A DNA stretch of 60,712 nt, taken from a bacterium (GTDB lineage Bacteria; Electryoneota; Electryoneia; Electryoneales; Electryoneaceae). The translations under genes and the position numbers were made by a program. Below the pieces are notes generated by a model. That model saw only the letters and a list, made by a program, of their open reading frames with translations. It had not been told where the DNA came from and ran no database searches. The stretch is from positions 122,945 through 183,656 of the forward strand of contig JAHLLH010000008.1 in NCBI GenBank assembly GCA_020444265.1, in the 5' to 3' direction. Position 1 is the first letter of the stretch, and every line of letters begins with the position of its first letter. Of the stretch, positions 19,331 through 60,574 are shown in pieces.

Positions 19331-19361
19331 GTTGCTTTGTCGCTTCGGTCCTCGCAATAAC
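19331..19361. repeat. SR-E partial repeat E2
   Basis: GTTGCTTTGTCGCTTCGG, TCCTCGCAATAAC: the reverse complement of the ATTGCGAGGA...GCGACGAAGCAAC end of SR-E. Confidence 0.65.
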
Positions 19362-56855: not shown

Positions 56856-56996
56856 TGTCGTTGCGAGGAGCGAAGCGACGAAGCAATCTCTCCGCACGTA
56901 TTTGGTTTCCCTGCGCGCTTTGCGCGCACCTATGAGCTGGTGAGAGATTCGAGACTGCTTCGTTGTCCGGCAGTTGCCGGACGCCTCGCAGCGACA
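56856..56996. repeat. SR-E composite repeat E4
   Basis: A 141-bp element with ends TGTCGTTGCGAGG and CCTCGCAGCGACA. Inside: GCGACGAAGCAATCTCTC matched by GAGAGATTCGAGACTGCTTC then GTTGTC; hairpins GCGCGC/GCGCGC and CCGGCA/TGCCGG. The layout parallels SR-C: conserved ends, swappable inner hairpins. Confidence 0.75.
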
Positions 56997-57418: not shown

Positions 57419-58642
57419 ATGACCCTTCCACTGAACGAACTGCTCGGCCTCGGTCTTGCTATTCTTTTCGGCCTGCTCGGCGGAAAGCTGGTGAAACGGT
57501 TTGGCATCCCGAGTGTCACCGGCTACATCCTCGCCGGTTTGATCATCGGCCCGCATGTCCTCGGTATGTTGACCCAGGAGGTGACTGGAAACCTTGGGGT
57601 CATCAATGAGATCGCCCTCGGTTTGATCCTCTTTGCCATTGGCAACGAGTTCGAATGGAGCCACCTGAAACATGTTGGGGTCAAATCCCTGTTGAAGCTT
57701 GCCTTCTTCGAAGCGGGCGGGGTGTTGATCCTGGTGACTGGTGTCTTCCTGTTGTTGGGAAATCCCCTTGAGTTCTCGTTGCTCGCTGGAACTGTAGCAG
57801 TCGCCACTGCTCCCGCGGTCACGCTGCTTGTAGTTCGCGAATATCGTGCCCAGGGACCCGTGACAGAACGTCTCCTCGCCCTGCTGGCCGTCAACAACGT
57901 TATTGCCCTCGGGCTCATGCGAGGCGTTCGTGCCTTGGTCGCTCTCGAGCATGGGGGAGATCTTTTTACTGTGATGATCACACCTTTCTACGAACTGATC
58001 GTCTCGCTCGCCCTCGGTTTTATCCTCGGCAAGCTGCTGTCCATCTGGGAAGACCACCTCGACGAGTTGTCCGAGCTTCTGCTGGTGATTATCGGGATCA
58101 TTTTGGTCGGTTATGGGCTGTCTAAAATCCTGATGTTATCCCCAATGCTGGTTGCGCTTGCCGCAGGGGCAACTGTATCCAACAGTAGCCACTTACACCG
58201 TCTGATCTATGTCGAGCAGCGACAACTGGAAAAACCGATCTACATTGCTTTTTTTGTGCTGGCAGGGAGTAAACTGCATCTCGATGCACTGCCCCAAATG
58301 GGGTTGGCGGGCGTCGCCTTTGTGATCGCACGTGTAACAGGCAAAATCGGTGGGATCTGGTTGGCAGGCCGTTCGATGCCAAACCTTCCCCAGGTCGGTA
58401 AATACATGGGGATGACCCTGCTTTGCCAAGGGGCCGTGGCAATTGGTATGGCGTATGAAATTGCCCGCGACTTCCCCGCACTTGGGGAGACTCTGTTGAC
58501 GATTATCCTTGCCAGTGTTGTGCTTCATGAGTCGGTCGGTCCCTTAATCGTACGGTTCGCACTCGGCAAGGCGGGTGAAATTCCCAAGAAAGGGGCGCCC
58601 CAGATCGAGACTGATCTGCCGAGACTCGATAGTTCTAGCTGA
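57419..58642 (+). CDS. Kef/CPA2-type cation:proton exchanger, copy 1
   Basis: 407 residues from ATG 57419 (MTLPLNELLGLGLAILFGLL); the longer TTG start is in repeat sequence. About 12 hydrophobic segments of a Na+/H+ exchanger fold: GIPSVTGYILAGLIIGPHVL, LILFAIGNEFEW (RxxxG-like core of Kef) and VATAPAVTLLVVREYRAQGP. There is no C-terminal TrkA-N/RCK domain, so it is the membrane unit only. The tail is short and polar (IPKKGAPQIETDLPRL). A paralogue starts 23 bases downstream and an EIIA-like gene follows, suggesting one operon. Confidence 0.9.
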   Translation: MTLPLNELLGLGLAILFGLLGGKLVKRFGIPSVTGYILAGLIIGPHVLGMLTQEVTGNLGVINEIALGLILFAIGNEFEWSHLKHVGVKSLLKLAFFEAGGVLILVTGVFLLLGNPLEFSLLAGTVAVATAPAVTLLVVREYRAQGPVTERLLALLAVNNVIALGLMRGVRALVALEHGGDLFTVMITPFYELIVSLALGFILGKLLSIWEDHLDELSELLLVIIGIILVGYGLSKILMLSPMLVALAAGATVSNSSHLHRLIYVEQRQLEKPIYIAFFVLAGSKLHLDALPQMGLAGVAFVIARVTGKIGGIWLAGRSMPNLPQVGKYMGMTLLCQGAVAIGMAYEIARDFPALGETLLTIILASVVLHESVGPLIVRFALGKAGEIPKKGAPQIETDLPRLDSSS

Positions 58643-58665
58643 ACAGAGTAGCGAAAGCTGAATCG

Positions 58666-59907
58666 TTGATACCCATTGAACTGCATGAACTTTTCGGCCT
58701 CGGGGTCGCCATTCTGGTTGGCCTGTTCGGGGGGAAGCTCGCGAGACGTGTAAAAGTCCCGCGAGTGACGGGGTACCTGCTGATCGGGTTGCTGATCGGG
58801 CCGTATGTGATGGGCTTGATCTCGCAGGATGTAGTCGGTGAACTGGGTGTGATCAATGATATCGCACTCGGGTTGATTCTCTTTGCGATCGGCAACGAGT
58901 TTGAGTGGTCCCATCTGAAGGAAGTTGGCCTGCGTGAACTGCTTCGCCTTGCCCTTTTTGAGACGATCGGTGTTTTTATCCTGGTCACCTTCGCGTTTGG
59001 ATTATTGGGATTCGACTGGATTTTCAGCATGCTGGCGGGTACGGTTGCAATTGCAACGGCTCCGGCGGCAACGCTTTTGGTTGTCCGTGAATACAACACA
59101 CGGGGGCCGTTGACCAATCGCCTGCTGGCTCTGGTCGCGGTGAACAATGTCATCTCGCTGCTGCTCTTCCGTGTCATTCACTCCTTGATGGCCTGGCAGC
59201 ATGGTGGCCCGATCCTTGGCAGTATTCTCGCGCCGTTCTATGAGATCATTGTTTCGCTTGCCTTGGGCTATCTGTTGGGCAAAGGGCTGGCGATATGGGA
59301 AGACCATCTTGATGAGTTACCGGAGTTGCTGCTGGTGATTATTGGGGTGGTCCTGCTTGGCACCGGTGCGGCGCACATGTTGAAACTTTCCCCGATGCTG
59401 GTGGCCATGGCAGCTGGTGCGACAGTCGCAAACAGCAGCCACCTGCACCGATTGATTTATGTCGAACAGCGTCAATTGGAACAGCCTGTTTACATCGCTT
59501 TCTTCGTGTTAGCGGGAACCTCCCTGCACCTCGATGTCCTGCCCCAGATGGGATTGGCCGGCGTGCTCTACATCGTGGCGAGGACCATTGGGAAAGTCGG
59601 GGGCATCTGGCTGGCGGGCAGGAAAATGGACCATTTGCCGCAGATCGGCAAGTACCTCGGGATAACGATGCTGTGCCAGGCGGGTGTCGCCATTGGCGAG
59701 GCATACGAGATCCTCGATCACTTCCCGGCTGAGGGGGAATTGTTGACGACCATTGTACTGTCGACCGTGATTGTGAATGAGACATTTGGCCCCTACCTGG
59801 TTCGTCTCGGCCTCTCCCTCTCACGAGAGTTGCCGGACGACTCATCTGGTGGGAACCCCTTGGAGGAGCTGGAGGAGTTGACTCCGCTTGAGCAGGAGAG
59901 GTCGTGA
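58666..59907 (+). CDS. Kef/CPA2-type cation:proton exchanger, copy 2
   Basis: 413 residues, apparently from TTG 58666 (MIPIELHELFGLGVAILVGL); no good ATG is near and the ribosome site is poor, so translation may depend on the upstream copy. It matches copy 1 closely in order and sequence: VPRVTGYLLIGLLIGPYVMG, LILFAIGNEFEWSHLKEVG, IATAPAATLLVVREYNTRGP, NSSHLHRLIYVEQRQLE and QIGKYLGITMLCQAGVAIGE. It also lacks RCK domains. Evidently a tandem duplication, and the two may form a heterodimer. It is followed by the EIIA-like gene 52 bases on. Confidence 0.9.
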   Translation: MIPIELHELFGLGVAILVGLFGGKLARRVKVPRVTGYLLIGLLIGPYVMGLISQDVVGELGVINDIALGLILFAIGNEFEWSHLKEVGLRELLRLALFETIGVFILVTFAFGLLGFDWIFSMLAGTVAIATAPAATLLVVREYNTRGPLTNRLLALVAVNNVISLLLFRVIHSLMAWQHGGPILGSILAPFYEIIVSLALGYLLGKGLAIWEDHLDELPELLLVIIGVVLLGTGAAHMLKLSPMLVAMAAGATVANSSHLHRLIYVEQRQLEQPVYIAFFVLAGTSLHLDVLPQMGLAGVLYIVARTIGKVGGIWLAGRKMDHLPQIGKYLGITMLCQAGVAIGEAYEILDHFPAEGELLTTIVLSTVIVNETFGPYLVRLGLSLSRELPDDSSGGNPLEELEELTPLEQERS

Positions 59908-59959
59908 CCATGCGTCCGAAGAGGATGTACCTTTTTTATCGCCATGCATTGAGGAGCCT

Positions 59960-60574
59960 GTGACCCCATTTGCCCAGACACCGACCGAGAGTTCGCTGCA
60001 AACACTCGATCCCGTCACCATGTTGATCGGGATCGCGGTTGCGCTCCTTCTCGTGCTGGTGACAAACCTGTTGCTGAAGCAGCGGGGACGGCATAACCGT
60101 TCTTCCTATCTCGCACGAGCGATGGTGGGTGTCCCGGAAATCATGCAAATCCAGTCCGCAGATCGTGAGGGTGCAATCGGCGAAATGGTTCGTTTTGCTG
60201 CACGTCTGATCCGTACGGTGGATGAAGAAACCCTGATGAAAGCGGTCCTGAGACGTGAAGCGGACATGTCAACCGGTCTTGTTCACGGAATCGCTGCACC
60301 GCACGCTCGCCTTCACCAGTTGAACCGCTCCATCGTCCTGTTTGGGCGATCTGCACGCGGAATCGAGTGGGAATGCCTGGATGATCAGCCCGCCATACTT
60401 ATTTTCCTGATCCTCTCGCCGGAAGACGATGCACAGGAGCAGCTTCATATGCTGGCGGAAATCGGACACTGTGCGGACGATGACGATTGTCTGGACCTGC
60501 TGCGATCGGCAAAAGACTGCCGAACAATCACCCGAGCTATCGAGCATAAAACGAGCAGGCGGAAGAAGAGTTGA
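59960..60574 (+). CDS. Membrane-anchored PTS EIIA-like (fructose/mannitol type) protein
   Basis: 204 residues from GTG 59960 (GAGGAG 3 bases upstream; earlier in-frame TTG 59888 is possible). One N-terminal membrane helix (VTMLIGIAVALLLVLVTNLL, about 15-34), a basic linker, then an EIIA type 2 domain: REGAIGEMVRFAARLIRT, LMKAVLRREADMSTGLVHGI and AAPHARLHQLNRSIVLFGRS, where His115 matches the phosphorylated His. The end is Lys/Arg-rich. EIIA domains also occur fused to or next to Na+/H+ exchangers; here it probably regulates the two exchangers in response to phosphoryl state or energy. No EI or HPr genes are in the window. Confidence 0.83.
   Translation: MTPFAQTPTESSLQTLDPVTMLIGIAVALLLVLVTNLLLKQRGRHNRSSYLARAMVGVPEIMQIQSADREGAIGEMVRFAARLIRTVDEETLMKAVLRREADMSTGLVHGIAAPHARLHQLNRSIVLFGRSARGIEWECLDDQPAILIFLILSPEDDAQEQLHMLAEIGHCADDDDCLDLLRSAKDCRTITRAIEHKTSRRKKS

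Follow-up and report, generated by a model that had tools for sequence, protein, structure and literature searches.

Two CPA-fold membrane proteins lacking the TM5 aspartate are encoded beside a membrane-anchored EIIA protein

Two similar exchanger-like genes followed by a gene for a membrane-bound EIIA protein raise the question of whether the three act together under the control of the phosphotransferase system (PTS), and of what kind of transport, if any, the membrane proteins perform. The window, by which we mean the whole 60,712-nucleotide stretch of DNA analysed here, ends where its contig ends. The three genes lie in a row at this end, all on the forward strand and separated by 23 and 52 bases. 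The first, ex1 (57419–58642, ATG start), is an open reading frame matching PF00999 and encodes a CPA-fold membrane protein of 407 aa; the second, ex2 (58666–59907, TTG start), encodes a further PF00999 protein of 413 aa; the third (59960–60574, GTG start) encodes a membrane-anchored EIIA-2 protein of 204 aa. A dispersed 25-base repeat, GCGAGGAGCGAAGCGACGAAGCAAT, was observed at 56863–56887 on the forward strand, within the stretch upstream of ex1, and at 19331–19355 on the reverse strand (exact and with 3 mismatches, respectively); shuffled sequences yielded zero.

Both membrane proteins belong to the CPA superfamily, with PF00999 scores of 115.5 bits for ex1 and 117.6 bits for ex2 (cut-off 26.2) and a fold of the NhaA/NapA type. 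The AlphaFold model of ex2 (mean pLDDT 90.8, pTM 0.89) was superimposed on SOS1, MjNhaP1 and NapA over 371 to 386 residues (Z 38.7–40.2, rmsd 3.1–3.6), and the chain ends approximately 28 residues past the last long helix of the model. The two proteins are 66% identical over their aligned part and 64% identical in full alignment, and were placed as sisters in three trees (support 98/96, 99/95 and 93/66). A scan with Pfam profiles found no second domain in either, RCK/TrkA included, and neither has the C-terminal RCK domain of KefB/KefC. Thus, the preliminary description of two closely similar exchanger-fold genes without nucleotide-sensing domains was accurate. Its label of Kef-type is loose; the CPA2 model TIGR00932 scored 51 bits, far under its cut-off of 238.3, and the KefC model gave ex1 21 bits (cut-off 752).

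Whether the term exchanger applies is itself doubtful, the TM5 aspartate being absent from both copies. CPA antiporters are expected to carry X-Asp on TM5 at motif positions 6 and 7. According to sections of PMC6181914, 94% of CPAs conserve the Asp at position 7, whose essentiality has been shown repeatedly. At these positions ex1 has Asn-Asn (57893–57898), as does ex2 (Asn160-Asn161; 59143–59148), where family-profile alignment places the pair on the Asp pair of NapA. The Arg or Lys expected at motif position 8 on TM10 is kept, with K310 of ex2 (59593–59595) aligning to the Lys of the NapA LGK stretch. The missing TM5 Asp, overlooked in the preliminary description, is the real surprise of this locus. 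An alignment slip was rejected as its source, given that the stretch is gap-free in homologues and that the 'dd' of the family profile falls on the NapA Asp pair. Decay of the genes was also rejected. Among four proteins of the window's bacterial family, dN was 0.28–0.37 and dS above 2.4 or saturated, and Asn-Asn is kept in 4/4; dN so far below dS with the Asn pair in place points to purifying selection. A compensating acid in the protein core was discarded as well, since the clade-specific acids fall in predicted loops.

We placed these proteins among their relatives. A ten-row clade containing the window's proteins (support 100/99) has the position-7 Asp in 0/10 rows (nine Asn, one Thr), keeps the TM10 Lys in 10/10 and has invariant E142 and E372. 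Outside this clade the Asp was kept in 79/79 rows, a count that leaves out 11 of 100 rows (seven named divergent, four short), including two Asp-less distant paralogues (RS and SC) and one protein of a second clade (L156, NN). With more genomes included, the window's clade grew to 18 rows, and the Asp is missing from 17 (13 NN, 1 NT, 1 SN and 2 GT); in the two GT proteins the TM10 Lys has gone too. The sole Asp-bearing member, L192, has Asn-Asp and a long branch. A wholly Asp-less clade was therefore abandoned: the count stood at 17/17 in one tree, which held a random 45 of 89 Asp rows, and became 17/18 once L192 and four others had been added. A second Asp-less clade of nine rows (support 100/99; 8 NN and 1 DN) carries fused EIIA in 9/9. 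Since the second clade is placed apart from the first, the TM5 Asp has, judging from the trees, probably been lost independently at least twice. A single further row, L212, has Asp-Ala. The 116-row set excludes three duplicate loci along with seven divergent paralogues. The phylum of G310 was searched with a profile of Asn-Asn proteins across 149 genomes taken from a bigger set, and this search consequently favours Asn-Asn proteins. In the literature, covered mostly outside subscription journals, we found no paper on an Asn-Asn CPA clade, and the text of the phylogenetic-tree section of PMC6181914 names no such clade. What most merits the attention of specialists is that two clades with links to PTS and CBS signalling show a conserved absence of the TM5 Asp.

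The C-terminal part of the third protein matches PF00359 with 84.5 bits (cut-off 27) and contains a phospho-acceptor histidine, His115 (60302–60304), within the motif IAAPHAR, which places it in the EIIA fructose/mannitol/Ntr class of the PTS. This histidine is invariant in 13/13 aligned EIIA domains. The protein falls outside the PtsN equivalog TIGR01419 (60.7 bits against an NCBIfam cut-off of 138.7). A TTG at 59888 was rejected as the start because it overlaps the exchanger gene, whereas the GTG at 59960 is conserved in two orthologues; these share M-x-P and GTG starts, in support of the GTG. The N-terminal segment is single and strongly hydrophobic (mean Kyte-Doolittle 2.78 over 19 residues) and, by hydrophobicity and model, forms a membrane-anchoring helix of residues 18–47 (60011–60100). 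The stretch KQRGRHNR follows this helix, and by the positive-inside rule the EIIA domain is probably cytoplasmic. One membrane helix joined to an EIIA domain with its APHAR histidine had been proposed at the outset, and this architecture was confirmed. The AlphaFold model of the protein (pLDDT 90.3, pTM 0.74) is nearest to PtsN structures and more weakly matches the cytoplasmic domains of SLC4 anion exchangers, a known resemblance. Among the 39 EIIA-matching ORFs of the loci examined, a helix precedes a stand-alone EIIA domain only in the window's protein and in the orthologues L048 and L049; L156, the fourth helix-bearing ORF, encodes an exchanger with EIIA fused to it. Three cysteines (C139, C171 and C177) are invariant in the three anchored proteins and are not found at those places in ten soluble EIIA domains; they may possibly serve a redox or metal-related function.

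Of the 386 genomes searched, three encode the anchored EIIA (G000, G003 and G005), each with at least 340 bits, and the next-best match scored 112 bits and lacked the N-terminal part. In the window's bacterial family, the exchanger is present in the same three of seven genomes and absent from the other four, so that the two co-occur in 3/3 genomes having either. By simple arithmetic the chance of such agreement is 1 in 35, two of the lacking genomes being only 80 and 86% complete. In G005 the anchored EIIA gene begins 24 bases after a single exchanger gene. In G003 the single exchanger is on a different contig, and the anchored EIIA gene instead lies approximately 210 bases after a gene for an MscS-type channel. 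Of the three-gene order in the preliminary description, the adjacency of exchanger and EIIA thus recurs (2/3 genomes), but the tandem exchanger pair belongs to the window's genome only. As the full order is not conserved, the ideas of a regulator serving a duplicated pair and of a heterodimeric exchanger draw on one genome, beyond which the heterodimer has no backing.

A supply of phosphoryl groups is encoded in the same genome. A single HPr gene, whose product carries GLHARP and GKSILG, is closely followed by a single EI gene, with GGATSHT in its product, and HPr kinase is represented by a match of 201 bits; a second PEP-utilizer match lies in a 962-aa frame that is presumably pyruvate phosphate dikinase. 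A search for EIIC of class PF02378 found none, and with EI, HPr and HPr kinase present this PTS looks regulatory from its gene content. The absence of donor proteins, or loss of the histidine in orthologues, had been named as evidence against phosphoryl control; the donor genes are all present, and the histidine is kept in both orthologues. Coupling of exchanger and EIIA by PTS phosphorylation is thus plausible, and on this genomic evidence better supported than before. The genome encodes three EIIA-2 proteins in all, the anchored one included. The second adjoins a sodium:solute symporter gene (PF00474; L013, contig C1, 4323–6512), and the third follows an ORF that by eye resembles an S4-type protein. 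The pairing of a soluble EIIA gene with a sodium:solute symporter gene also appears, by ORF likeness, in three other genomes of the family (L050, L051 and L053), making it a candidate second PTS-controlled transporter pair. A scan of genome contigs gave three ordinary EIIA loci.

Small signalling proteins are common companions of this exchanger family. With ex2 as query at 1e-35, matches were obtained in 74/386 genomes, and their surroundings were scanned with profiles built in this analysis. Contig ends make every neighbour count in the 90 exchanger rows a lower bound: EIIA is fused to the exchanger or encoded on its strand no more than 300 bp away in 34, a PII-like protein occurs in 24, CBS domains in 27 (16 of them fused), one or more of these three in 59, and an adjacent exchanger in 19. 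The membrane domains of this family are routinely paired with small cytoplasmic signalling modules, of which EIIA is a usual choice. A separate EIIA regulator, earlier considered a special feature, is therefore ordinary; the coupling is not new and the membrane tether is the unusual part. The accompanying statement that EIIA domains fused to exchangers are known agrees with the fusions seen in genomes, though printed confirmation was not found. The literature, again mostly outside subscription journals, yielded no description of CPA exchangers with a membrane-anchored EIIA next to them, and a plasmid search returned four weak relatives. Apparent EIIA-PII fusions of approximately 270–276 aa, matching both profiles, stand by exchangers at ten loci (L112, L114, L117, L121, L127, L134, L136, L158, L166 and L173). 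MscS-type channel genes were seen next to CBS-exchanger pairs (L113 and L123) and next to the anchored EIIA (L049), a pattern suggestive of a common osmotic or K+ theme. Asp loss as an outcome of EIIA linkage was considered and dropped, the proportions in the 90-row sample (6/11 against 28/79) not differing significantly (p = 0.32).

From sequence and by analogy with known systems, we propose a regulated transport module, with belief and doubt evenly balanced, in which the tethered EIIA would switch an Asp-less CPA-fold transporter through phosphorylation of His115, with non-standard proton exchange. The helix would keep the EIIA domain at the inner face of the membrane, where it may dock onto the neighbouring transporter. 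Phosphorylation of His115 by EI and HPr would then alter this contact and switch the transporter. The tether would take the place of the C-terminal cytoplasmic domain of relatives, which is a CBS pair or a fused EIIA. In a clade with Asn in place of the Asp that carries the proton or cation on TM5, an ion would probably be moved without standard proton exchange. The want of a carboxylate at position 7 makes ordinary cation/proton exchange unlikely and leads us to favour an uncoupled ion pathway over antiport by another group and over a sensor role; most likely, the module contains a PTS-switched transporter without canonical cation/proton antiport. We infer that the proteins dock and that the transporter is switched, as well as the direction of control, the substrate and the mode of transport. 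In favour of the module are the donor genes together with the lack of a PF02378 EIIC, the histidine kept in orthologues, the co-occurrence of anchored EIIA and exchanger, their adjacency in G005, the EIIA partners of 34/90 related rows and of the whole second Asp-less clade, the Asn pair under purifying selection, and the precedent of PtsN and YcgO. Several observations count against the module, namely the MscS neighbour of the anchored EIIA in G003, the C-terminal region through which YcgO is bound and which ex1 and ex2 lack, the non-significant association of Asp loss with EIIA linkage in the 90-row sample, and the Asn-Asp of L192. A wider and more tentative idea, which we hold with less than even confidence, is that the two Asp-less clades, wired to PTS or CBS signals, may constitute a class of pseudo-antiporters or of ion pathways that are gated by signals and uncoupled from protons. 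In one lineage the tethered EIIA would be the dedicated gating subunit, through which the energy state sensed by the PTS would act on ion flux.

Other readings were weighed against the module. Ordinary cation/proton antiporters under EIIA control, with K310 or a Glu carrying the proton and the Asn pair altering selectivity or stoichiometry, would accord with the conserved fold and TM10 Lys, the purifying selection and the invariance of E142 and E372. This reading is nevertheless rather unlikely in view of the 94% conservation and essentiality of the position-7 Asp described in parts of PMC6181914, the additional loss of the Lys from the two GT members of the clade, and the position of the clade-specific acids in predicted loops. 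A pseudo-antiporter membrane domain might alternatively sense an ion or voltage and signal to the anchored EIIA, or to the fused CBS or EIIA of relatives. The carrier Asp has indeed been lost in two clades, and Asp and Lys together in two rows, and all or almost all of the proteins concerned are linked to signalling domains; yet the pathway shows no sign of degradation, with Lys kept in 10/10 and the whole fold intact, one member of the clade bears the Asp, and we regard a sensor as improbable. Least credence goes to an anchored EIIA whose main target is an MscS-type channel or another protein of K+ transport, its proximity to exchangers reflecting shared regulation only. The MscS genes beside the anchored EIIA in G003 and beside related exchangers (L113 and L123) speak for such a target, as do the several K+ transport targets of E. 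coli PtsN reported in sections of PMC13104625, but co-occurrence with the exchanger in 3/3 genomes and adjacency in 2/3 make it very unlikely.

The module would be of use whichever way the membrane proteins behave. Transport by the Asn-Asn proteins in spite of the missing carboxylate would make them a direct test of the role of the TM5 Asp in the most thoroughly studied antiporter fold, and an inability to transport would make them a new set of pseudo-transporter sensors. The tethered EIIA would in addition give a compact system for reconstituting PTS control of an ion pathway, with a regulator unable to diffuse off.

Among known systems, the relatives with adjacent or fused EIIA, PII-like proteins or CBS domains share the membrane domain family and the kinds of regulator with the window, but most keep Asp-Asp, and their EIIA lacks a membrane helix. 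KefB/KefC and TtNapA share the CPA2 fold, NapA being among the solved proteins closest to ex2 in both sequence and structure. KefC differs in having RCK domains and Gln-Asp (as observed in the Kef-like protein that this genome also encodes), both absent from ex1 and ex2, and NapA in having Asp-Asp where these have Asn-Asn. YcgO of E. coli keeps the conserved Asp. Sections of PMC11808508 describe how unphosphorylated PtsN binds YcgO and inhibits its K+/H+ antiport, so that there, as we would expect here, an EIIA-2 class protein controls a CPA antiporter through its phosphorylation state. PtsN, however, is soluble and general, whereas the window's EIIA is membrane-anchored and gene-linked; and YcgO is a CPA1 protein bound through a C-terminal RCK/CorC region (PMC11808508, same sections), while ex1 and ex2 have neither such a docking region nor the TM5 Asp. 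In LacS, according to parts of PMC10710835, an EIIA-type domain (EIIA-Glc-like) regulates a secondary transporter by phosphorylation, as the anchored EIIA may do here, although the transporter and the class of EIIA are unrelated and the EIIA domain of LacS is fused.
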